A stretch of DNA of 64,000 bases from a virus. The notes under the pieces were generated by a model that did no database searches, was not told the origin of the DNA, and worked only from the letters and a program-made list of their open reading frames with translations. Where the stretch lies: IMG/VR virus record IMGVR_UViG_3300037504_000588, positions 1 through 64,000 of that record, one strand, 5' to 3'. A program made the translations under genes and the position numbers. Of this stretch, positions 38,067-60,233 are shown one piece after another; positions within the stretch are counted from its first letter, which is position 1, and each line of letters begins with the position of its first letter.

Positions 38067-38765
38067 ATGAAACATACATGTGAACAGATTTATGAAATTG
38101 GAGCTAATAACAAAGTGTATGGCCATGAAAAAGGTCTTTGCCGAATAACAGGCAAAGAAAGTACAGGGGTGCTTTTTGATAAGTGGGTTAGAAACACATT
38201 CAATGACCACGACTATCTTTTTCCTGGTACTATAATTTCAAACGAAGCTTTATTTTGCTTTGATGAAAGCTCAGAGATTGTTCAGCGAAAAACTGGACGT
38301 GGTAAACCCCAAAGATTCCGCACGTATTCTCATATTATTAAAGATGGTGAGTGGTATTGCGTTACGAAAGGCGATAAACGAAAGATATTTGAATTAATAG
38401 TTGAAGGTGCTGAAGTGGTTTGTCTGACCGAAACAGGACAAAAACACGTATTGTTTAAGCATAAAAATGGCATGTGGCAGCTTGATGAATTGCATGTAAA
38501 ACCAGATATTGAATTATTAGGCTTACTGCATTACCACATGTGTGAGCTACTTGCATATCAATTTTCACAATCTGAAATTATCACAGGAGATTATAAATCA
38601 AATAGAATTTTGAAAGCTGGTTTAAAAAACTGGAAAGAACACGAAAATATTATAAAAGAATACCGTGGTAGTGGCATATTTGATTTTACTTCATTCATAC
38701 TTTACACGGACGAAAAGAAACAGGCAACGCCCGAACCTGTAAGTAAACCGGGCAAAGAAATATAA
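38067..38765 (+). CDS. csf1: Csf1-like (Cas8-like) subunit of type IV CRISPR effector
   Basis: The 232-residue protein is the first gene of a tight operon that includes clear Csf2 and Csf3. It contains GLCRITGKESTGVLFDKWV, FPGTIISNEALFCFDE and KRKIFELIVEGAEVVCLTET followed by GQKHVLFKHKNG; the GQKHVLF segment is the most Csf1-like part. The family usually has paired CxxC zinc ligands; here I see only single cysteines at about 25 and 64, so the zinc finger appears degraded. Homology is less obvious than for csf2 and csf3 and rests partly on gene order. Confidence 0.72.
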   Translation: MKHTCEQIYEIGANNKVYGHEKGLCRITGKESTGVLFDKWVRNTFNDHDYLFPGTIISNEALFCFDESSEIVQRKTGRGKPQRFRTYSHIIKDGEWYCVTKGDKRKIFELIVEGAEVVCLTETGQKHVLFKHKNGMWQLDELHVKPDIELLGLLHYHMCELLAYQFSQSEIITGDYKSNRILKAGLKNWKEHENIIKEYRGSGIFDFTSFILYTDEKKQATPEPVSKPGKEI

Positions 38766-38773
38766 AAATCATT

Positions 38774-39121
38774 ATGGAATTAACTCAGGAATTAGTTGCC
38801 GAAAACCTTCTATGGGGTTTGTGGCGAAGTATTACCGAGGATTACAAAACGCAATATCCTCGTGAAATTTGGGAGCATTACGAAAATGCTCTACGTTCAG
38901 CAAGCTACACAGATAGCTTGAAAGTATTCTTAACCAATTTCCAACGCCGTATACCTATCGATATTCAGGCGCAATACAATAAAGATATTCTTTCAGTTGT
39001 AGAAGCTGGCGAAGATGATACAGTACTTAATTGGCTAAGAACAGAAACCACCTACCTAACCATGTTGGTTAGACTTAGAAATCAGGAAAGAAAAGAATCA
39101 TTAAAAGAATTAAACTCATGA
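38774..39121 (+). CDS. cas11: Cas11-like small subunit of type IV-B effector
   Basis: The 115-residue protein is predicted to be all helix: ELVAENLLWGLWRSITEDY, EHYENALRSASYTDSLKVFL, DTVLNWLRTETTYLTMLVR. Its size, helical nature and position between csf1 and csf2 match the Cas11 small subunit of type IV-B modules. Its stop overlaps the csf2 ATG (ATGA). Small-subunit sequences are poorly conserved, so the name depends on context. Confidence 0.65.
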   Translation: MELTQELVAENLLWGLWRSITEDYKTQYPREIWEHYENALRSASYTDSLKVFLTNFQRRIPIDIQAQYNKDILSVVEAGEDDTVLNWLRTETTYLTMLVRLRNQERKESLKELNS

Positions 39122-40020
39122 AAACTTTAATCTTAGAGGGAAATTGCACGGCTTTAAGTTCAATTAGCCATAATGGAGGCGAAAAAAACGGAACAATAGT
39201 ACAATTACGCCGTGAGAAATTTGTACAACCCAAAGGCAAAGTAGTTGAAATTCCTGTTATATCAGGAAATAGTATTCGGGGGAAACTTCGAGACTTGGCT
39301 GCTATTGACATTTTAACAAAAAAAGACGGGGTAAAAGTTCAGGTTGATGCTGATAGTTTTAACTTGTTATTTTCCGGTGGTTCGCTTGAAAGTGTTGGCG
39401 AGAAAAATTTAAACATCGACAAGGTGCGTCAAATGCGAAAAGACATACCAATGATTTCGGTACTTGGATGTTCAGTCGGTAATATAATTGTGCCGGGTAA
39501 AGTTGACATAGGTAAAATGATCCCTATTTGTAAAGAAACCTTACACCTTATTCCCGAAAAATTCCATGGCACGGAAGAAATAAAAACAATTTGGGAGTAT
39601 TGTCAGGTCGAAATGAACACCCGAAAAGACGACACAAAAGATGAAAACAAGCGGGAATTTATCAAAGAAGAAGATAAGACCGAAGATTTGCGAGGTGGGC
39701 AGATGATGTACTACACCGAAACTTTAGTTACAGGCACTCGCTTTTACTGGAAAGTTTGTTTGCGAGATACTACCGACATTGAAACAGGTGCTTTTCTATC
39801 TATTCTGCAAAGTTGGGTAGCTCAAAGTTCACAGGTAGGCGGCAATGGGCGTGTAGGGCATGGTCGTTTAAAAGTTGATTTAACCGAAACTTCGGTTGTT
39901 GATTCTGACATGAAGTTTGAAAACTCCGACTTCGTAACCTATATTGACAAAGCTAACGAAGCTAAAAAAGATGTAACAGATTATTTTGAAAAAGGAGTTT
40001 CAAAAACACTATTTAAGTGA
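39118..40020 (+). CDS. csf2: Csf2 (Cas7-family) backbone subunit
   Basis: The 300-residue protein is a RAMP-fold Cas7 homologue. ISGNSIRGKLRDLAA (residues about 49-62) is the conserved SGxSIRG loop motif of Csf2, and GGQMMYYTETLVTGTRFYW (about 193-211) and GGNGRVGHGRL (241-251) are the downstream strands and Gly-rich loop that close the ferredoxin-like core. In type IV complexes Csf2 polymerises along the guide RNA. GC content hand-counted in three 60-base lines is 37-45%, above the phage genes around it. This is the most certain of the effector subunits. Confidence 0.88.
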   Translation: MKTLILEGNCTALSSISHNGGEKNGTIVQLRREKFVQPKGKVVEIPVISGNSIRGKLRDLAAIDILTKKDGVKVQVDADSFNLLFSGGSLESVGEKNLNIDKVRQMRKDIPMISVLGCSVGNIIVPGKVDIGKMIPICKETLHLIPEKFHGTEEIKTIWEYCQVEMNTRKDDTKDENKREFIKEEDKTEDLRGGQMMYYTETLVTGTRFYWKVCLRDTTDIETGAFLSILQSWVAQSSQVGGNGRVGHGRLKVDLTETSVVDSDMKFENSDFVTYIDKANEAKKDVTDYFEKGVSKTLFK

Positions 40021-41288
40021 TGGGAAAGATATATTTAGATAAAAATGTATTTGAAGCTTTTTCAGAGAGAGTAAATTATATATTCGATGAATTTAAGTTA
40101 GTCTATATAAGTTTTTCTGGAGGTAAAGACAGTTCTGTTATGATTCAGCTGGTTAATGAGATAGCAAAAAAGAGAGGTAGAACTTTTTTTGTATATTACG
40201 TTGATTTGGAAGCTCAATATACTGCAACAATAAATCATGTTTACGAATTAAAACAATTATCTCAAATAGAAAAGTTTTATCATTTGTGCTTACCTATGTC
40301 ATTAACTAATGCATCATCAATACTTCAACCAAAATGGACATGTTGGGATAAAAATGTCAAAGAAAAATGGGTTAGAGATATGCCAGATGATTGCATTAAT
40401 ATTGATAACCATGATTTTGGAGATTATTATTTTGAAGGTATCGAGTTTGAGCAGTTTATGAAAAAATTCCCTGCATACTTAATGAAAAAACATAATGAAA
40501 ATAAAATTGCAGGGTTGGTTGGAATAAGAAGTGATGAATCTTTAAATCGGTTCAGGGCGATAGCGTTTGGTAAAAATATTTATAAAGATAAAAAATGGAC
40601 TACTGATAATGGGAACGGTTATTATTCGATATATCCCATTTATGATTGGAAGACACAAGATATATGGGGAGCTACATTTAAGTTTTCTTTAAAGTACAAT
40701 AAGGTGTATGAAATGATGCTTAAAAATGGTGTAGGAATACATGAACAAAGGATTTGCCACCCTTACGGAGCAGACCAAAGAGTATCTTTAAACCAATGGG
40801 CAGCAATAGAACCGAAAACATGGGATAAAATAGTTAATAGGGTTTCAGGTACTAATTTTGGAAACATCTATTGTAAAACTTCTTTATTAGGACATAACGG
40901 GACAGAAAAACCAAAACATTTAACTTGGCAAGAATATTCAATATTTCTATTGGAATCTATTGGCATGTACTCACCGACATTAATGAATCATTATGTCAGA
41001 AAATTGAAAATATACTTTAAATACTATAAAGACAATTATAATCTTAAAATAAAAGATATACCTGATTATAGAACACCAAAAGAAGCTAAAGAGCATGGTA
41101 AAGGTATTCATTGGAAAAAAATTGCTAAATGTTTAGAAAAAAACGATTTTGCTTGTACTTCATTAAGTTACGGATTAACAAATGATGATATTGAGGATGC
41201 AAAAAAATTAAAAAAAGAATGGAAAGATAGTTTAGGTATTCAAGAAACAACGAAAGTAATGAAAACATTAAAAGAAAAAATATCATGA
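40020..41288 (+). CDS. ibrA: IbrA-like PAPS-reductase-fold protein (DUF3440)
   Basis: The ATG at 40020 shares its A with the csf2 stop. The 422-residue protein has a PP-loop SFSGGKDSSVMI (residues 32-43) and YVDLEAQY, FKDKKWTTDNGNG-type segments and ICHPYGADQRVSLNQWAAIE, IEPKTWDKIVNRVSGTNFG, which match the DUF3440 extension of IbrA. The fold binds adenosine nucleotides and is found in PAPS reductases, DndC and ATP sulfurylase relatives. Its partner IbrB follows with a four-base overlap. GC content is low (about 28-38% in sampled lines), like the phage backbone. Confidence 0.85.
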   Translation: MGKIYLDKNVFEAFSERVNYIFDEFKLVYISFSGGKDSSVMIQLVNEIAKKRGRTFFVYYVDLEAQYTATINHVYELKQLSQIEKFYHLCLPMSLTNASSILQPKWTCWDKNVKEKWVRDMPDDCINIDNHDFGDYYFEGIEFEQFMKKFPAYLMKKHNENKIAGLVGIRSDESLNRFRAIAFGKNIYKDKKWTTDNGNGYYSIYPIYDWKTQDIWGATFKFSLKYNKVYEMMLKNGVGIHEQRICHPYGADQRVSLNQWAAIEPKTWDKIVNRVSGTNFGNIYCKTSLLGHNGTEKPKHLTWQEYSIFLLESIGMYSPTLMNHYVRKLKIYFKYYKDNYNLKIKDIPDYRTPKEAKEHGKGIHWKKIAKCLEKNDFACTSLSYGLTNDDIEDAKKLKKEWKDSLGIQETTKVMKTLKEKIS

Positions 41289-41797
41289 TAAAATTTCCAG
41301 TATTAGATGTAAAAATGGTTGATATAGATTTGGTTTATAGTAATGATTACAATCCCAATGCAGTTGCTCCACCTGAAATGCAGTTGTTGAAGAAATCAAT
41401 AGAAGAAGATGGATATACGCAACCTATTGTAACATTTTACGATAAATTAGAAGATAAATATATAATAGTAGATGGTTTTCATAGATATCGGTGCGCTAAA
41501 GAGTTTTTTAATTTAGATAAAATACCTATAGTTGTAATCAATAAACCTATTCAAAATAGAATGGCATCTACTATAAGGCATAACAGAGCGAGAGGTACAC
41601 ATTCTATTAAAGGAATGAGCAGTATAGTTATGGAATTAACAAAAAAGGGTTGGGAAAACACTCAAATTTGTGAACATTTAGGAATGGAATTGGAAGAAGT
41701 TATTAGGTTAAAACAAATAACTGGACTAAAGGAAGCATTTGCAAATCATAAATTTTCAAAAAGTTGGGAAGAATTTGAAATTAATAATAATGGATAA
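41285..41797 (+). CDS. ibrB: IbrB-like ParB/sulfiredoxin-fold protein
   Basis: The 170-residue protein shows a ParB-type catalytic core, DGFHRYRCAKEFF, preceded by ELLKKSIEEDGYTQPIV-like sequence, then IRHNRARGTHSIKGMSSIV and GWENTQICEHLGMELEEVIR (helix-turn-helix). RHNRARGxH is the characteristic IbrB sequence. ParB-fold enzymes of this type can hydrolyse CTP or ATP. IbrA-IbrB pairs also occur alone in phages and prophages, so finding one inside a csf operon is unusual. Confidence 0.87.
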   Translation: MIKFPVLDVKMVDIDLVYSNDYNPNAVAPPEMQLLKKSIEEDGYTQPIVTFYDKLEDKYIIVDGFHRYRCAKEFFNLDKIPIVVINKPIQNRMASTIRHNRARGTHSIKGMSSIVMELTKKGWENTQICEHLGMELEEVIRLKQITGLKEAFANHKFSKSWEEFEINNNG

Positions 41798-42470
41798 AAA
41801 AACAGCTTTATTATACGCTCAATTAAAGCCTTATAAAGCCCTGGTGAATAAAACATCAGGCTTTATAAGATGGGCTTTGGAGCGTGTTGGAAATCCTTAC
41901 GTTGCTTGTTCTTTCGGTAAGGATAGCACCGTAATGCTTCATTTAATTTTACAACATGATCCTGATATTCCTGTTCGCTTCGCTTCACATCCTGAAACAA
42001 GGATTTTAGATAATTATGATGAAGTTATAAATGAATGGATAAATAGAGGAATCAATTATCATGAAATTTATTGCAAGGGAGGGTTAGTAAAGGTGAGATA
42101 TGCACAAAGAAAAGCATTAGATGCTTTACATGAAGATTGGGATTCTTTTTTTGTTGGTATAAGAAAACAAGAATCATTCGGAAGGCGTGTATCTTTAAAA
42201 AAACATGGAATGTTTCATCAATTAAAATCTACTGGAAGGGTAAAAATAAGTCCATTGTCTGATTGGACAGAAAAAGAAATAGCGGTTTACATTTTAGTAA
42301 ATGATTTACCTGTTTTAAATAAATATAATATAGAGGGTTTTTCCGCAAGAACAACAAGCGGAATACCAAGGACTAATATTGAAGAGTGTTTAATATCGTT
42401 AAAACAACGAGATATTGAAAGCTACAATAAATTATGTCAATTATTTCCTGACACTAAATATTTTGGATAA
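41790..42470 (+). CDS. cysH: Second CysH-like PAPS-reductase-fold protein
   Basis: I choose the ATG at 41790, which overlaps the ibrB stop by eight bases (226 residues). It has a PP-loop CSFGKDSTVMLHL (residues 40-52), SHPETRILDNYDEVI, KISPLSDWTEKEIAVYIL and CL...TKYFG at the end. The ECGLH motif of assimilatory PAPS reductases is missing, so the classic reduction reaction is unlikely. A cysH-like gene is a known companion of type IV-B csf operons, which supports the classification here. Its low GC content matches ibrA/ibrB, not csf2/csf3. Confidence 0.85.
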   Translation: MDKKTALLYAQLKPYKALVNKTSGFIRWALERVGNPYVACSFGKDSTVMLHLILQHDPDIPVRFASHPETRILDNYDEVINEWINRGINYHEIYCKGGLVKVRYAQRKALDALHEDWDSFFVGIRKQESFGRRVSLKKHGMFHQLKSTGRVKISPLSDWTEKEIAVYILVNDLPVLNKYNIEGFSARTTSGIPRTNIEECLISLKQRDIESYNKLCQLFPDTKYFG

Positions 42471-43126
42471 TGAACGAATTTAAACAGCTAAGAATAAGAG
42501 CCTATTTAAAAACAGGTGTAATAAGCGACCAATATCTACCTTTAGATGGTGTTTTATATTACCACCTTGTGCGCCGTGAAATGGGCGAAGAAATAATAAC
42601 AAAAAGCCGTGAGAGTAATGTAAGGCAGGGAGCCAATATTACTTTACCGATAAAAAAATCGGGACTAAAGAATAACCTTTGGTTTTACGCTTGCTCTTTT
42701 GCTCAATTTCCAGAATATGTTGTCGAAGATTCAAGTTTTAAAGTAAAGTCGGGCGATTGGCTAAAACATAGTCAACATTTTAACGCAAAAAAGAAAATAG
42801 ACATACAGCGTGGCAAATATAAAAACGCTCATATTAAGCTGTATTACAGGCATTGTGAGTACATAGACTGGTATTGTGTCGGCGTTCCTGAAAAACTTGC
42901 TGAATTACTTAAATTCTGTACCAATTTAGGCAAAAACACAGGAGATGGATGGGGAGAGGTTTTGAAATGGGAAATAAAAGAGTGGCCAGAAGATTGGAGT
43001 GTAAGAGGTGCTGGCAATAAGTTAATGCGGAATGTACCACTAAAACAAAACGGCAGAGGGATTATGTACGGAATGCGTCCAAGCTACTGGAACCCACGAC
43101 ACATTGCTGTATGTAAGATGCCGTGA
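42470..43126 (+). CDS. csf3: Csf3 (Cas5-family) subunit
   Basis: The 218-residue protein begins RIRAYLKTGVISDQYLPLDG and continues with VLYYHLVRREMG. The first is the Csf3 signature strand with LDGxLYY. TGDGWGEVLKWEI (157-169) is the conserved Gly-rich loop of the RAMP fold, and GNKLMRNVPL plus RPSYWNPRH match the C-terminal part of Csf3. Csf3 caps the 5' end of the guide. Its start codon shares one base with the cysH stop, so all seven genes of this block (38067-43126) overlap or lie within ten bases. Codon choice and GC (38-45% in sampled lines) resemble csf2. Confidence 0.85.
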   Translation: MNEFKQLRIRAYLKTGVISDQYLPLDGVLYYHLVRREMGEEIITKSRESNVRQGANITLPIKKSGLKNNLWFYACSFAQFPEYVVEDSSFKVKSGDWLKHSQHFNAKKKIDIQRGKYKNAHIKLYYRHCEYIDWYCVGVPEKLAELLKFCTNLGKNTGDGWGEVLKWEIKEWPEDWSVRGAGNKLMRNVPLKQNGRGIMYGMRPSYWNPRHIAVCKMP

Positions 43127-50322: not shown

Positions 50323-50526
50323 ATGAAAAATATTAATCCCAAAACAAAACCTTTCCCTAAGCGTAAAAATTCAGAAGTAAAAGACCCTCCTCGGTATCCT
50401 AAAATCATTAATGCTTATGAAGATAAAGCTAAAAAAGATTATCATCATACATTAAAACAAACAATCAATGAAATTGCTAAAGAAATGATTCATATTGTTA
50501 AAAACAGAAGTAATGACAAAAAATGA
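50323..50526 (+). CDS. Small hypothetical protein
   Basis: The 67-residue basic protein starts MKNINPKTKPFPKRKNSEVK. It overlaps the start of the next gene (50513) by 14 bases, so translation is probably coupled. No family recognised. Confidence 0.5.
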   Translation: MKNINPKTKPFPKRKNSEVKDPPRYPKIINAYEDKAKKDYHHTLKQTINEIAKEMIHIVKNRSNDKK

Positions 50527-52537
50527 AAAAAAAAGTAGATTATCAGATAAAAAATTAAGAGGATTAAGTCAATATTGTGCTAAACACGGTGCTGAACAAA
50601 CAGCAATACATTATGGACTTAAATTAGAAACATTAAATCGTTATTTGAGAGAAGCTAAAAAAAGAAATATTAATGTAGAGGATTCTAATAGGTGGTTACG
50701 TGAGATACGTGATAATTTTACAGATGAAGAGCTTAGAGCAATAGCAACAGGAGGAAGGGTGCTTCCAGGCATAGAAAAGGTTCCTATTATATCTTTTGAA
50801 GGACAAAGGATCAGGATAGGCGCTATGACAGATACACATATAGGCAGCAAATATTCAAAAGAAGAAAGAATATATCAAGCTTTCAACGAATTTAAAAAAG
50901 AAAAAGTTGATTTTATTGTCCACTCTGGAGATGTAACTGAAGGTATGTCACATCGCCCAGGACATATATATGAATTAGATGCTTTAGGTTATGATCAACA
51001 AAAAGAAAAAGCTATCAATATATTCGGACAATGGTCAGATACTGATATATATGCTATAGACGGAAATCATGACAGATGGTTTATCAAGAGCAATGGAGCA
51101 TATATTGTGAAAGATATTTCTAATCTTTTAAGAAATTTTCACTATCTTGGACAGGACGAGGGAGATATTAGTCTTAAAGGGAAGGCTACATTAAAGCTGT
51201 GGCATGGAGAGGACGGAAACTGTTTTTCAGATGATACAGAAATATTAACTAAAGAGAGTGGATTTATACCATTTTCAAAATTAACAAAAGATATGCATGT
51301 TGCTACTATGCAAAAAGAAGGACATATCTTTGAATGGCAAAAACCAACCCACATTACAAGTGAAGATTATAGTGGAGAGATGATTAATATAAAACATAGA
51401 TGTGTTGATATTAATATAACTCCCAATCATGGCATGTGGGCTAAACACACTCAATCTGTTTTAAACAGACTTTCTAAATTAAAACACAAAGAAAAATCAC
51501 ATAGAAAGTTAAAAGATGGATGGTTTAAAATTACTGCAAAAGAATTGTTATCTAATTTTAGAAAGCAGAAGTTTAAACTTCCTAAAACAGTGAATGATTT
51601 TGTATTTAAACCTGTGGAAAAATTCATGGAAATACAAAAGATTGAACCTAAAAATAAGGGAATGGATTCACGGATGAACCATGTTGGTACTATTTGTACG
51701 CTTGATTTAGTAAGGTTAATATCTTGGTATGTGACAGAAGGATATGCAAATAAAAACCAAATAACAATATCTCAATATAAGAACATTAACAAAAGTAATT
51801 ATAATGAGATATTAGAATTAGTGTCATCTTTAGGTGTGAATTACACTGCATCTGATAAATCAATATCAATTCATGGTAAAGAATTATCGGAATATCTTAT
51901 TAAGAGTTGTGGCAGTGGGTCATATCATAAATATCTTCCTGAATGGATCAAAGAAGGAAACAAAACAATATTAAATGTTGCCTTTAAAACTATGATAAAG
52001 GGAGATGGATGGAAAAGAGGAAAATCTTTTGGGTACAGAAGTGTAAGTAAAAGATTACGTGAAGACTTTGGGCTTATTGCATTAAAACTTGGATATGCTG
52101 TTAATTATAATGGCGATCAAGTATATGTTAATACAGTACAAATAAATCCCTCTATTGTTAAAAAACCTACAACGTTTTATTATAAAGGCAAAGTATATTG
52201 TTGTGAGGTTCCTAATGGATTGATATATGTTAGAAGAAATGGAAAAACATTATGGACACACAACAGCTATGCGCTTAGTTACCGGTTACAGAAGATAATA
52301 GAGAGTCTTAGCGGAGGAGAGAAACCAAATGCATTAATTTGCGGACATACTCATAAATATGTCAAGATTTTTGAACGCAATATTTATACTATATCTGTAG
52401 GAACGATGCAGCAGCAAACAAAATGGATGAGAGGTAAGCGTATTGCTGCACATACAGGATTCTCTATCATAGATTTATGGGTTAATGAAAAAGGAATTTG
52501 TAAATTAACAGACACTTGGTATCCGTTCTTTATATAA
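50513..52537 (+). CDS. Metallophosphoesterase interrupted by an intein
   Basis: I choose ATG 50513 (674 residues in the precursor). Residues about 10-50 (KKLRGLSQYCAKHGAEQTAI...LNRYLREAK) look like a helix-turn-helix. The extein has calcineurin-like motifs: GAMTDTHIGS (DxH), VHSGDVTEGM (GDxxE), IDGNHDRWF (GNHD), LKLWHGEDGN and, after the intein, LICGHTHKYV (GHTH). Removing the 348-residue intein gives a 326-residue enzyme ending in WYPFFI. An intein at a catalytic site of a phage enzyme is typical of homing-driven insertion. The substrate could be nucleic acid or a nucleotide. Confidence 0.85.
   Translation: MTKNEKKSRLSDKKLRGLSQYCAKHGAEQTAIHYGLKLETLNRYLREAKKRNINVEDSNRWLREIRDNFTDEELRAIATGGRVLPGIEKVPIISFEGQRIRIGAMTDTHIGSKYSKEERIYQAFNEFKKEKVDFIVHSGDVTEGMSHRPGHIYELDALGYDQQKEKAINIFGQWSDTDIYAIDGNHDRWFIKSNGAYIVKDISNLLRNFHYLGQDEGDISLKGKATLKLWHGEDGNCFSDDTEILTKESGFIPFSKLTKDMHVATMQKEGHIFEWQKPTHITSEDYSGEMINIKHRCVDINITPNHGMWAKHTQSVLNRLSKLKHKEKSHRKLKDGWFKITAKELLSNFRKQKFKLPKTVNDFVFKPVEKFMEIQKIEPKNKGMDSRMNHVGTICTLDLVRLISWYVTEGYANKNQITISQYKNINKSNYNEILELVSSLGVNYTASDKSISIHGKELSEYLIKSCGSGSYHKYLPEWIKEGNKTILNVAFKTMIKGDGWKRGKSFGYRSVSKRLREDFGLIALKLGYAVNYNGDQVYVNTVQINPSIVKKPTTFYYKGKVYCCEVPNGLIYVRRNGKTLWTHNSYALSYRLQKIIESLSGGEKPNALICGHTHKYVKIFERNIYTISVGTMQQQTKWMRGKRIAAHTGFSIIDLWVNEKGICKLTDTWYPFFI
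51221..52264 (+). mobile_element. LAGLIDADG-type intein in metallophosphoesterase
   Basis: The element begins with Cys (CFSDDTEIL, block A) and ends at LWTHN followed by Ser in the downstream extein: the canonical C...HN|S splice junction. Inside, VRLISWYVTEGYANKNQI and FKTMIKGDGWKRG are the two LAGLIDADG-type motifs of a homing endonuclease. It spans 348 codons and lies directly after the WHGEDGN part of the extein, i.e. at the active site. Autocatalytic splicing is inferred from intact terminal residues. Confidence 0.85.
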
Positions 52538-54569: not shown

Positions 54570-57500
54570 ATGAAAGATATATTTAAAAAAATATTAGGTA
54601 TTCCAACTTTAGAAGAAAAAGCAGAAGAATATATACAACTTGAAAATGAAAAGGAGCTGTTAAAAGGTGATATAGACAATGCGGCAGAAGAGTTTCAATA
54701 TATGTCATATGTAAGAAAGTCAGGAATTGAAAAATGCAACAACGAAGAGATAAAAGAACGTATTGAAGACAAATACAATGATTTTATCGCCGAGCACCTC
54801 TCTAATGTTAAGAAATTAAGAGAAAGAAAGAAGGAGATTGACTTACGTTTACAAAAATTAAACAAGGACGAAAGGATAAAAAAGGGAATAGGGGAATTAA
54901 AAAAGATTAATGCATATAATACTTTAAAAAAAGCGTACAAATTAGGAAGATTATCACACAGTGCATTTGATAAGATTTGTAAAGCCAAGCAAGGTAAAGT
55001 TAAATTTGCAGATGTGTTGGTTTATGATAAAGATTTAAATCAGTTATATTTAAAGCGTAAATCTGATAGTACATTTGAACCCGAAAAGTGGGGTCTTCCT
55101 GGAGGACATGTTGATTTGCATGAAGATTGCAAAGAGGCTGCAATACGTGAATTGCAAGAAGAAACAGGAATAGATGTAAAATCTAAAGATTTAGAGTTAA
55201 TTGGTAAATATGATAAAGGTGGTGTATATATTGAATATTATAAAGTTTATCTAAAAGAAGAAAAGCCTCAAATAACACTTGAATCAAGCGAACATCAAGA
55301 TTATAAATGGGGAAGATTTGATGATTTTACAAAAGAGGAGATGTTGTTAAATCTACACTCTAATTTAGAGGATATTTTAAATCCTTTAAAAAGAAATATA
55401 AGTATTATAAAAAAAGCAATAGATCAAGGGTTAATAAGTAAAGATCAATTGATTGATATTGTAAAAGCTAAAAAAGACCCCTGTTGGGAAGGATATGAAC
55501 AATACGGAACAAAAAAGAAAGACGGGAAGGAAGTTCCAAATTGTGTAAAAAAAGCAGACGAAGATTGGGACAGTTGGGAAGAAATGGAAAAAAGTGAAGA
55601 CGAAGAAACCCCTTCCAATGGAACAATAAAACCTTCAACCAGAGATGGTAAAAAGGCAATGGTATGGATGGATGGTAAATGGCATCACTTTGGACAGAAA
55701 GGAGCAAAGCATAATTACTCTAAAGAAGCAAGGGAAGCTGCAAAAGCAAGACATAAAAAGAACCTTGAAGGAAGCGATCCTCGATCTAAAGCATTCAGGG
55801 TATATTGGAAGAAGTATTGGGAGAAAGGTGGTAAGGTCAAAGAAACTGACACAACAAAGGCAGAAGCTGATTATTTTAATATTATTGATGAAGATGATGA
55901 TATTTTTAAATCTTGGTCTTCTGATCTTAAAAATAGGTTCCCTAATGGTGATTGGAGAACAATAAATGGAGCTAAGGTTTTTATCAATAATGGTAGGGTT
56001 ATAGCTGGGTTAGATGGTTTTAATGGAATGATAGATAATTACTTTAAAGAAAATAAGGAAAGTAAAATTAAAATATCTAAAGAAACAGATAAAGCTTATT
56101 TACTGAATAAAGATGGAGTTGAGTTTTGGGTGCAAAAAAGATGGTACAATAAAGACAAAGAGAAGTTAACTCCAAGAGGGGAGAAGGCATTAAATGAGGT
56201 TTTAGAAAAACAATCTAAAGTTGAAGGTGGGAATAAGGATTTTGATATAAAAAAAGAAACACAGAAAGCTTTTCTTTTAGAAAAAAATGGCGTTGAGTTT
56301 TGGGTTCCAAAGTCTTGGTATAAAGATGGAAGTTTAAACAGTAAGGGTTTAGATAATTATTTAGATGCAAAAGAGAAACAAAGACCATATAAAATATGGG
56401 AAGCACCAGGAGGAGATATGTTTAGAGCTTATGATAAAGATGGGTCTGGTAACTATATTCAAATATCAGTAAAAGAAAGAAACCCACAGGGGTATTATGA
56501 GAGGCATAGATATTCAAAAGGAGAGAGCGGATTTTATACTTTTTTCATAAAAGAAAATGGTGATTTTAGTCAAGCAGATAAAAAACAGTTTATAGAAGAT
56601 ATAGAAGATAAATTTGGAGCATATCATGTTAATTATGTTGAAAAATCTTCTATTGATACCCTAATCAAAGCCCTTGAATCAAATAAATTAGATTGGAATA
56701 GCTTTGAAAAAGCTGGAGGACACAAGTATATCCGTAGAGAAGGTACTCCGGGTAATTATAAGTATATATATAAAGAGAGTAAAACAAAAGGTAAAAAGGA
56801 TGATATAATTACTCCAGAGGAACGTGCTAAAAATTTCAAAGAATGGTTTGGGGATTCTAAGGTTGTTGATGAAAACGGAAAGCCTTTGGTTGTTTATCAT
56901 GGAACAGCTTCCGATAAAAAATTTACAGAATTTAAACCTATGTCAAGCAGTGAAGCAAGGCATATACATTTTAATGATAATTTTACATTTTTTACGTCTA
57001 AAAAAGATATAGCAGAAGATTATTCTAACTCTTCTGAATTAATAATGTTTATGCAAGAATATGGGCTTGAAGAAGACGATTATGATCTGTTTTTTGTTCC
57101 ACAAAGTGTACGTGAAGAAAATAAAGATAAATTTGAAAATTATTTAAAAAACAGTCATGGGTTAAGCGAAAGTGAAATAGATGAACTTGATGATTTAGAT
57201 TTAAATAATTATTGGCAGGATTATTTTACAGATTTATTGGCATATTATGACAAAAAACATATATACAGTACATATTTGAAGATAGAAAAACCTAAAATAG
57301 TAAATGCTGAAAAATTATTAAACTCTTTAAGTGAAGAAGAAAAAGATACAATAAGGAACGAACATGAAACCCTTAGAGAGTATATTATAAGTTCTTTTGA
57401 AAGAGAGTATAAAGATAAGGGGTATGATGGGCTCATAATTAAAAACATATTTGATTCTCCTAAATATGGTGAAGTTATAGATGATGAAGGGAAAGAGATG

Positions 57501-60233
57501 AAGAGTGATATTTATATAACAGTATCTCCTAATCAAATCAAATCAGCAACAGAAAACAAAGGAACTTTTGATCCAAATTCAAACGATATAACAAAGTCAA
57601 GTGTTGATACCCTACTAAAAGCCTTTGAATCAGGTATCTTAGATTATGACTTATTTGAAAAGGCAGGGGGTCATAAGTATATCCGTAGGGAAGGGACAAA
57701 GGGTAATTATAAATACATTTATGCAGAACCTCATGGAACAGACGGTGGACATAAAGAGGAGATGGAAGGCTTAGGTCAATTAAATGAAAAAGATTTTTTA
57801 AATAGATTAGGAGAGGCTCTTTATTCGTATAATAAAGAACCTAAAAAAATTAGAGATTTAAGAAAAGATATTATAAATTACCTGTATATTAATTCTGAAG
57901 AATCAATTCTCACCAATAATGATTATTTTAATGATTATGTTCAAGAATGGATTGAAAAAAATAAACCAGTGCACCTTGACAATGATGATTTTGTTAATGA
58001 TTATATACATATAGAAACTGGGGAAAAAGAGAATGCCACTAAATTAATAGAAGAGTATAAAGAATATATAGATTCTTTAGAGGAAAATATGGACACTGAT
58101 GAAGAAGAAGAAGGAGATCAAGAAGAGATAGAAAGATATGAAGAAGAAATTAAGACAATTGTCAAAAATTCTATTACAAGAAGTGATTTACACGAAATCT
58201 TATCAGATTTAAATGAATTAAAATCTAAATTTTATGAAGATAAAAATAAGATTATTGAAAAATATGGAGAATTTACTGGAATAGTTCATTCCTTTAAAGG
58301 AGATGAAGATAATTTATATCCATTATATAAGATAGGTGGTAATGAATTTCATTTAATTAAAGATAAAGAAGATATAGATGAAAAATATAAAGAAGATATA
58401 GTAGAATTGGATGAAATAAGAAGAGAATCTAAAAGGGAATTAACACAAGAAGATATTAAGATTTTAAATTATGCATTAGATAATAAAAAAATAATAAAGT
58501 CTCGATACTTTGATCCAAATTCAAACGACATAACAAAAGCAGGAGGTCATAAGTACATAAGACGTGAAGGAACTCCTGGAAATTATAAATATATCTATAA
58601 TGAGCAAAGCAACAATCAAAAAGAAAGGAAGGAAAAAGGTTCTGATAAAGTAAAAAGTAGTTATGGTTTTGATTATGTTAGTGAAGGTAAAGGAAAGAAT
58701 GGTGCAGTCTTTAAAGTAAAAAATAGTGAAGGCGAAGAGGTAGCGTTGCTTGAATATCATAATATAAACGATAATAAGGTTGAGGTGGACAGAATTTATG
58801 TTAGAGACAAATTTCAGAAAAAGGGGAATGGTCAAAAAATACTAAAAGATATTTTGGATCACGAAAAAGCAGATAGTTTTGAGTTATATCCCTTAGATCA
58901 TGTCCCCTGGGTGAAGATGGGAATGCAGTTTGAGGGAAAAATGCTAAAAATATCTAAAGAGGATTTTGTAGATAAAAATAAGAAAAAGTTAGAGACAGCT
59001 AAATCGCAAGACGAAGACATTCAAAAAGCAGAATATACAAAGGATCAACTTCAAAGTATGGTAGAAGAACATGAGAGACTTATTTCTATCATAGAACCCC
59101 ACGCTAAAATGGATGAGAAAGTTGCAAAGGAAGTTGAGATACAAAAGAAGGAACTGGAAGATTATAAAAAACAACTATCTGAATTGATAGGTAAGGCAGA
59201 TGGTGATGAACTGAATCCTTTTGAAGAGTTTGAATATATAGAAAAAGCACAAAGAGTATATGCAGACAATGCACTTAACCGTAAACTAAAAAGAGTGGGG
59301 AAACCATATGGAAGCACAGGACAAGAAGAAACTCCTAAAGATAAGCCTTCTAAAGAAAGCGATGAATCAAAGCAATCCTCAAAAAGTGTTGAAGATCATG
59401 CTAAACAAGCAAGTGGAGAAGCATTAGAAGAAGCAAGTAAGAATGCCAAAGACCCTGAGATGAGGGAAGCAGCACACAAGGAATTACAGAGGAGAGAAAA
59501 GGAAGAAAAACCAAAAGAAGAGAAAGTACAGGAAGAGGGTTTAGATCAATCTAAAGAAAAAGAAGGTAATTCGCAAAAAGAAGAAGGAAAGGAAGGCGAT
59601 TCACCTAAGGAGGGAAGTTTTTTAGATAAATATAAAGATAAGATAAAAAATTGGACACAAAAAGAAAAAGAATTTTTTCGTAAGGGGTTACATAAGGAAG
59701 GATCAAGGGAGAGAAGAAAATTTGGAGATTTTATAAAAGACAAATCAAAAGGGATAATTAAAGCAGTTAAGCACGAAGTAGAAGAGTTTAAGGAAGCTGG
59801 TCACGGAATAGCAAAATTATTTCAAGGAAAAAAAATAGAAGATAAAGAGAAGGAAGCAGTAAAGAATGTAAGTAAACATCTTGCATTAACTATTGGTAGT
59901 ATTGTTGCAACAGGAGGAGCTGGGCATTTACTTCATGCAGGAATAATGGGGGCATCAAAAGGATTATTTGTACATTATTTAGAACATGTTGGAGTTCAGA
60001 CACTTGGAAGAGCATTGATATTTGCATCAGATGAGGGGAATATAGGAGAAGTGAGAGACGTTGACCCAGAAAAAGTTATTGAACAATTATTGTTAGATTT
60101 TTCAAATTGGGTAAAAAATGAAGAAATTTCAGAAGAAAAGTGGGTTGATATAATGAATGATAGTAAGGAATTATTAGAACAAGAAAAATATAATAAATCT
60201 GAAAAAGAATCAAATAACAAAAGAGATGAATAA
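54570..60233 (+). CDS. Giant polyvalent protein: NUDIX, ART-like and GNAT-like domains
   Basis: The 1,887-residue protein is a chain of domains. A coil (1-110) is followed by a NUDIX hydrolase domain (about 145-275): FADVLVYDK, WGLPGGHVDLHED and the REL-EE-G box. Then comes PCWEGYEQYG...VPNCVKK and GSDPRSKAFRVYWKKYWEKG. ERAKNFKEWFGDSKVVDE, PLVVYHGTASDKKFTEFKP and IKSATENKGTFDPNSNDI (about 749-1007) form an ART-like polyvalent domain. A GNAT-like acetyltransferase (about 1364-1470: VDRIYVRDKFQKKGNGQKIL) follows. Three GGHKYIRREG linkers start at 56715, 57666 and 58542. The C-terminus has a charged tail and a Gly-rich segment. Such proteins are often packaged and injected to modify the host. 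It overlaps the prohead protease gene by eight bases. Confidence 0.8.
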   Translation: MKDIFKKILGIPTLEEKAEEYIQLENEKELLKGDIDNAAEEFQYMSYVRKSGIEKCNNEEIKERIEDKYNDFIAEHLSNVKKLRERKKEIDLRLQKLNKDERIKKGIGELKKINAYNTLKKAYKLGRLSHSAFDKICKAKQGKVKFADVLVYDKDLNQLYLKRKSDSTFEPEKWGLPGGHVDLHEDCKEAAIRELQEETGIDVKSKDLELIGKYDKGGVYIEYYKVYLKEEKPQITLESSEHQDYKWGRFDDFTKEEMLLNLHSNLEDILNPLKRNISIIKKAIDQGLISKDQLIDIVKAKKDPCWEGYEQYGTKKKDGKEVPNCVKKADEDWDSWEEMEKSEDEETPSNGTIKPSTRDGKKAMVWMDGKWHHFGQKGAKHNYSKEAREAAKARHKKNLEGSDPRSKAFRVYWKKYWEKGGKVKETDTTKAEADYFNIIDEDDDIFKSWSSDLKNRFPNGDWRTINGAKVFINNGRVIAGLDGFNGMIDNYFKENKESKIKISKETDKAYLLNKDGVEFWVQKRWYNKDKEKLTPRGEKALNEVLEKQSKVEGGNKDFDIKKETQKAFLLEKNGVEFWVPKSWYKDGSLNSKGLDNYLDAKEKQRPYKIWEAPGGDMFRAYDKDGSGNYIQISVKERNPQGYYERHRYSKGESGFYTFFIKENGDFSQADKKQFIEDIEDKFGAYHVNYVEKSSIDTLIKALESNKLDWNSFEKAGGHKYIRREGTPGNYKYIYKESKTKGKKDDIITPEERAKNFKEWFGDSKVVDENGKPLVVYHGTASDKKFTEFKPMSSSEARHIHFNDNFTFFTSKKDIAEDYSNSSELIMFMQEYGLEEDDYDLFFVPQSVREENKDKFENYLKNSHGLSESEIDELDDLDLNNYWQDYFTDLLAYYDKKHIYSTYLKIEKPKIVNAEKLLNSLSEEEKDTIRNEHETLREYIISSFEREYKDKGYDGLIIKNIFDSPKYGEVIDDEGKEMKSDIYITVSPNQIKSATENKGTFDPNSNDITKSSVDTLLKAFESGILDYDLFEKAGGHKYIRREGTKGNYKYIYAEPHGTDGGHKEEMEGLGQLNEKDFLNRLGEALYSYNKEPKKIRDLRKDIINYLYINSEESILTNNDYFNDYVQEWIEKNKPVHLDNDDFVNDYIHIETGEKENATKLIEEYKEYIDSLEENMDTDEEEEGDQEEIERYEEEIKTIVKNSITRSDLHEILSDLNELKSKFYEDKNKIIEKYGEFTGIVHSFKGDEDNLYPLYKIGGNEFHLIKDKEDIDEKYKEDIVELDEIRRESKRELTQEDIKILNYALDNKKIIKSRYFDPNSNDITKAGGHKYIRREGTPGNYKYIYNEQSNNQKERKEKGSDKVKSSYGFDYVSEGKGKNGAVFKVKNSEGEEVALLEYHNINDNKVEVDRIYVRDKFQKKGNGQKILKDILDHEKADSFELYPLDHVPWVKMGMQFEGKMLKISKEDFVDKNKKKLETAKSQDEDIQKAEYTKDQLQSMVEEHERLISIIEPHAKMDEKVAKEVEIQKKELEDYKKQLSELIGKADGDELNPFEEFEYIEKAQRVYADNALNRKLKRVGKPYGSTGQEETPKDKPSKESDESKQSSKSVEDHAKQASGEALEEASKNAKDPEMREAAHKELQRREKEEKPKEEKVQEEGLDQSKEKEGNSQKEEGKEGDSPKEGSFLDKYKDKIKNWTQKEKEFFRKGLHKEGSRERRKFGDFIKDKSKGIIKAVKHEVEEFKEAGHGIAKLFQGKKIEDKEKEAVKNVSKHLALTIGSIVATGGAGHLLHAGIMGASKGLFVHYLEHVGVQTLGRALIFASDEGNIGEVRDVDPEKVIEQLLLDFSNWVKNEEISEEKWVDIMNDSKELLEQEKYNKSEKESNNKRDE

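Follow-up and report, generated by a model that had tools for sequence, protein, structure and literature searches.

A phage-borne variant of the type IV-B CRISPR-Cas operon lies within the window (the whole stretch of DNA analysed, 64 kb out of the 78,996 bases of a virus record); this operon is real, looks intact and has an exchangeable enzyme slot. Comparison with related operons shows, at the level of sequence, that the slot between csf2 and csf3 is modular and has been exchanged. In relatives, the CysH protein of this slot is replaced by a methyltransferase-fold protein, and the window operon itself has gained an IbrA-IbrB pair; both features look new. No report of a methyltransferase replacing CysH, or of IbrA-IbrB inside a type IV-B operon, was found in the open-access literature searched, although an earlier report of slot replacement is not excluded.

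The operon comprises seven genes, all on the plus strand, in the order csf1, cas11, csf2, cysH1, parB, cysH2 and csf3 (38067-43126; Table 1). The initial annotation of this interval, made from the letters and their open reading frames, had described seven overlapping genes, and this held except at the first junction, which is an 8-nt gap; the remaining junctions overlap by 1-8 nt. The start of cysH2 is the ATG at 41790, within the 3' end of parB. Slot genes overlap the genes before and after them and have a GC content of 29-31%, compared to 36-38% for the csf genes of the same operon.

Table 1. Genes of the type IV-B operon, with window coordinates and the matches that support each assignment.
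Gene	Coordinates	Strand	Evidence
csf1 (type IV Cas8-like large subunit)	38067..38765	+	PADLOC typeIV_Cas8 2.3e-6; 18/18 aligned homologues match Csf1_0_IV, best 2.3e-28
cas11 (small subunit)	38774..39121	+	PADLOC Cas11_1_IV 7.7e-20
csf2 (Cas7 backbone)	39118..40020	+	PADLOC Csf2_0_IV 2.7e-69; 7jhy Csf2 2.4e-33; phrog_22746 4.4e-62
cysH1 (PAPS-reductase domain + DUF3440, phage IbrA type, SGGKDS loop)	40017..41288	+	DUF3440 9.2e-25; PAPS_reduct 2.2e-13; phrog_2302 3.7e-83
parB (ParB_N domain, phage IbrB type)	41285..41797	+	ParB_N 6.7e-10; phrog_2159 7.3e-67
cysH2 (CysH-like PP-loop protein, SFGKDS loop)	41790..42470	+	PAPS_reduct 2.7e-15; kin to slot CysH of relatives
csf3 (Cas5)	42470..43126	+	PADLOC Csf3_0_IV 1.1e-45; NCBIfam TIGR03116 6e-18; type IV-A Csf3 8rc3 1e-4

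Csf2, Csf3 and Cas11 are clearly identified by PADLOC profiles, and Csf1 is weak when considered alone. Despite this weak score, the identity of Csf1 is firm, because the Csf1 model recognises every one of the 18 aligned homologues. NCBIfam models score both Csf2 (4.2e-25) and Csf3 below their curated cut-offs, and we therefore place these proteins in a divergent branch. Among solved structures, Csf2 is best matched by the type IV-B Csf2 of 7jhy, with type IV-A Csf2 at ~1e-8. Both Csf2 and Csf3 score higher with type IV profiles than with any other RAMP family; the converse would have refuted the initial annotation, which had called for such a search and whose naming of Csf2, Csf3, Csf1-like and Cas11-like proteins held. 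PHROGs already contains phage families of Csf2 and Csf3, without an assigned function.

In Csf1 proteins of the window clade, most of the CxxC...CxxC (zinc-finger-like) cysteines have been lost, and more distant Csf1 proteins retain them. A fold search with Csf1 was discarded, as the AlphaFold model was too poor for use and the matches were meaningless. One related locus has an additional 138-aa gene between csf1 and cas11 (L002:2138-2551), with a cysteine-rich zinc-binding-like stretch. On a Bacteroidales genome contig (L077:3326-4546, minus strand), Cas11 (residues ~52-154) is apparently inserted within Csf2 in a 407-aa protein, with csf1, cysH and csf3 alongside.

The features of type IV-B are met, namely Csf2, Csf3, Csf1, Cas11, an associated CysH-like gene and the absence of an array. 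As type IV-B operons come with a CysH gene, membership is well supported, and on the sequence evidence the operon very likely belongs to this subtype. The initial annotation had called it type IV-B-like and left the three middle genes unnamed; the assignment is strengthened by the CysH-like gene among those three. Profile searches revealed no cas6, dinG or adaptation genes among the operon proteins and their neighbours, nor did a PHROGs scan of 20 further phage proteins show any. One caveat here is that not every ORF was compared with Cas profiles. The hallmarks of type IV-A (DinG helicase, Cas6/Csf5) were not found in the operon or its neighbours and the record has no array, so the type IV-A criterion is not met. 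Hence the earlier statement that csf4/dinG, cas6/csf5 and an array are missing held, for the genes in the operon and its neighbours and for the array in the whole record. No recognised nuclease is present among the csf and CysH proteins. This statement does not cover parB, as some ParB-like proteins are nucleases.

No CRISPR array (≥3 copies) or two-copy mini-array was detected in the whole 79-kb record, a search that the initial annotation had proposed; an array planted as a control was recovered. Arrays were likewise not detected in the related loci, including two cas6-bearing phage records (L035 and L044) that were searched nearly whole. In these two phage operons and in a Thermococcus plasmid (L070), cas6 lies in or near the slot; no array was detected for the plasmid, of which the search covered only 10.7 kb. 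The Cas6 homologues of L035 (9678-10352) and L044 (8975-9619) (Pfam 7.9e-15 and 1.4e-13) are encoded in the csf2-csf3 region, beside cysH. An Rfam search gave no matches. No conserved noncoding element was found beside the operon across the clade, where, short matches aside, only L004 and L015 have flanks in common, and the flanks of the window operon fold no better than shuffles.

By Pfam-type domains, the three middle genes encode PAPS_reduct plus DUF3440, ParB_N, and PAPS_reduct, respectively. Because the gene with PAPS_reduct and DUF3440 (cysH1) adjoins a ParB-like gene (parB), the criterion for IbrA-IbrB is met. Matches to cysH1 occur in 215 phage records, some of them annotated as IbrA, and no close relatives were found in IMG/VR. 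The IbrA-IbrB pair is absent from all other mapped operons. It is cysH2, the other of the two PAPS_reduct genes, that is common to related operons. Its product is 53-76% identical to the slot CysH of L004, L007, L008 and L009 and has no match among 50,697 phage records. The closest slot CysH is that of L008 (76%); the window core is closest to those of L015, L004 and L002. The PP-loop SFGKDS is kept in cysH2, and its alignment contains no invariant cysteine, in agreement with the published observation that type IV-B CysH proteins are without the catalytic cysteine (PMC8175902). One relative has a second PAPS-reductase gene ~17 kb from its operon, which the cysH1 and parB profiles do not recognise. 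A direct role in phosphorothioation was considered and rejected: the DndC model TIGR03183 yields 17.6 bits against a cut-off of 290, and partner genes are absent from the operon.

Relatives were collected by scanning IMG/VR with Csf2 and Csf3, which gave ~40 contigs, followed by profile mapping. The core is conserved across ~34 related viral operons, and in the window clade the content of the csf2-csf3 slot varies, being an SFGKDS-type CysH, a GKQS-type CysH (L003, L012) or a 154-160-aa non-CysH protein (L002, L010, L011, L015). Among the 34 distinct operons in which the set of four core genes is complete, a CysH-like gene is present in 30 and a methyltransferase-fold gene in four, with none having both or neither. 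The chance of this exact split in a random draw is 1 in 46,376, a figure that serves only as a guide, since the operons are related. Viral records without a PAPS_reduct match (n = 3) are precisely those bearing the methyltransferase gene.

The methyltransferase fold is supported by a match to RrnaAD (3.1e-6, for L011), by an AlphaFold model (pLDDT 84) and by Foldseek matches to SAM methyltransferases, including TYW2, of up to 2.5e-7. Outside type IV-B operons, no such protein was found in phages, plasmids, IMG/VR or 396 Bacteroidota genomes. The tree built from the four core proteins scatters the methyltransferase operons over three or more places, corresponding to at least three slot switches, and it rejects their grouping as one clade. 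Core genes are ~80% identical at the DNA level among the window, L002, L003, L004 and L015, and the gene change begins where csf2 stops and ends where csf3 starts. L004 and L015 have a 101-bp downstream flank in common (91% identity) despite their different slot genes, CysH and methyltransferase. In the distant clade, cysH mostly follows csf3, at times with helix-turn-helix or sigma-like genes intervening; the csf2-csf3 position of the slot is therefore clade-specific. The shift to a methyltransferase rests on only four loci, and in the two most divergent loci that have csf2 (L042 and L046) neither slot enzyme was detected with the profiles used.

Two other phage type IV-B operons have, in or beside them, a SpoU-family RNA methylase and a DNA N6/N4 methylase gene (L037:10144-10557 and L045:6070-6816).

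Tailed-phage genes are present, encoding a portal, major head protein, DNA polymerase, SbcCD, a UvsX-like recombinase, helicases and several DNA methylases. The nearest relatives of the head protein are two unannotated faecal phages, followed by named Bacteroides and Chryseobacterium phages, and the nearest cassette in the genome collection belongs to a contig that resembles a phage and was binned with a Bacteroidales MAG. These data make a Bacteroidota host likely, without proving it. The initial annotation had inferred a Bacteroidota phage with a head module, and the head genes are indeed there. It had also viewed the location as unusual, which held only in part: type IV systems of phages (several of them lytic) and prophages, and type IV-B with CysH in a Bathyarchaeia virus have already been published (PMC10848311, PMC11656645), so the phage location of type IV-B alone is not new. 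An empty-site search using the downstream gene found no relatives. Elsewhere in the window, a 680-aa ORF (50495-52537) combines a metallophosphoesterase domain with a weak LAGLIDADG stretch that may reflect an intein or the insertion of a homing endonuclease; NUDIX, ADP-ribosyltransferase and acetyltransferase-like domains occur in a polyvalent protein of 1,887 aa (54570-60233); and two adjacent short ORFs (154-947) are mostly GCT-rich alanine-coding repeats.

Our best reading, which may more readily prove wrong than right, is that an array-less type IV-B ribonucleoprotein positions an exchangeable, probably nucleic-acid-modifying enzyme. The operon would be a mobile cassette of a (probably Bacteroidota) phage encoding this particle. 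By inference from the solved homologue (7jhy), Csf2 and Cas11 would form an RNA-bound filament, with Csf3 and Csf1 as caps. The complex would be without a recognised nuclease, and its catalytic part would be the slot enzyme: in the window, a CysH-type PP-loop enzyme (cysH2) together with the captured IbrA-IbrB, and in relatives another CysH or the methyltransferase-fold protein. The ribonucleoprotein would bring this enzyme to nucleic acid, the target would be modified rather than cut, and the phage would be protected or a competitor or host function silenced. That the complex recruits the enzyme is inferred, as are the chemistry, the bound RNA and the target, and the balance tips slightly against them as stated. 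A bolder reading is possible, in which type IV-B complexes would be RNA-directed nucleic-acid modification machines, phage-mobile cassettes with interchangeable modules (PP-loop CysH, RNA-methyltransferase-like, or CysH plus IbrA-IbrB).

An RNA sponge or decoy is another possible explanation. Here, the Csf complex would coat small RNAs without sequence choice and blunt host RNA-guided defence, with the slot enzymes as separate helpers. The solved type IV-B complex formed on non-specific, uniform-length RNAs, and a sponge was proposed by its authors (PMC7937560); the lack of an array or cas6 in the window operon, and of a conserved noncoding RNA alongside, also speaks for it. However, a sponge leaves unexplained why each complete operon has one slot enzyme, overlapping its neighbours and replaced instead of lost. 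The PP-loop superfamily includes TilS, TtcA and DndC, and the methyltransferase superfamily TYW2 and KsgA. Because both superfamilies include RNA- and DNA-modifying enzymes, we favour modification over a plain sponge. Against the modification reading, the link between slot enzyme and filament is without an experiment or complex structure, the solved complex assembled on heterogeneous RNA without CysH (PMC7937560), and exchange of cargo genes could also mean arms-race counter-defence unrelated to the complex.

Classical guided interference, in which host crRNAs are borrowed and rival mobile elements repressed as in type IV-A, seems unlikely. The initial annotation had suggested guides from elsewhere acting on competing phages or plasmids, for which there is no direct evidence. 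Backbone relatives of type IV-A do act in this manner (reviewed in PMC11656645), and cas6 is kept in two related phage operons and the Thermococcus plasmid. Yet neither array nor mini-array was found in the phage or the nearly whole cas6-bearing phage records, DinG is missing, and type IV-B co-occurs negatively with other CRISPR systems (PMC7937560). For cysH1-parB only, it is nearly as plausible as not that the pair is an ordinary phage IbrA-IbrB moron that landed in the operon by chance and is unrelated to the Csf complex. IbrA-type proteins are far more widespread than Csf2, a relative of which occurs in only one record of the same phage collection, and the pair's absence from other mapped operons and the distant second PAPS-reductase gene of one relative point the same way. 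However, the pair fits the slot precisely: its genes overlap the adjoining ones at either end, and nothing is disrupted. A chimeric assembly joining phage contigs to host or plasmid ones, which would also have refuted the initial annotation, is all but excluded. In its favour, the record is metagenomic and the csf genes are higher in GC than the phage average. Against it, whole operons of identical gene order recur, between differing flanks, on many viral contigs that are independent of one another, and thus the operon is no one-off assembly; related operons are embedded in separate phage contigs alongside head, tail or recombination genes, and only 2 of 393 Bacteroidales genomes contain the operon, one of these being the L015 phage contig.

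The function of type IV-B is stated as unknown (PMC8175902, PMC11656645), and why the subtype keeps a CysH gene is an open question on which the slot finding bears. Repeated gene-for-gene replacement between CysH and the methyltransferase-fold protein suggests that either protein may fill the same role. It shifts the likely function towards delivery of an enzyme or modification, and provides matched operon pairs. If the modification reading is true, the CRISPR complex would edit or mark its target and not cut it.

Among known systems, the DndC/BrxP PAPS-reductase family of DNA phosphorothioation systems has the PP-loop superfamily in common with the slot enzymes, but the matches are weak and far under family cut-offs, the operon is without partner genes, and the slot CysH is without an invariant cysteine. 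Phage IbrA-IbrB pairs resemble cysH1 and parB in family (phrog_2302 and phrog_2159) and adjacency; many phages have the pair without type IV genes, whereas the window pair is inside a CRISPR operon. Skermania phage SPI1 (KR011061), an isolated phage, has csf2 (35% identical), csf3 and a CysH-like gene in series, but there cysH follows csf3, and the genes are all annotated as hypothetical proteins. Fuxivirus, a Bathyarchaeia virus (PMC10848311), likewise encodes type IV-B with a IV-B-type CysH adjoining csf3; it differs in being an archaeal virus with a two-repeat mini-array, and IbrA-IbrB or a methyltransferase is unmentioned in the relevant sections. The type IV-B system of Mycobacterium sp. 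JS623 (7jhy) has the same csf1-cas11-csf2-csf3 core, the same lack of an array and, for the genes compared with Cas profiles, of cas6 and adaptation genes, and the CysH association of the subtype. In contrast to that system, the window operon has cysH between csf2 and csf3, joined by IbrA-IbrB, and four of its relatives have a methyltransferase-fold gene instead.
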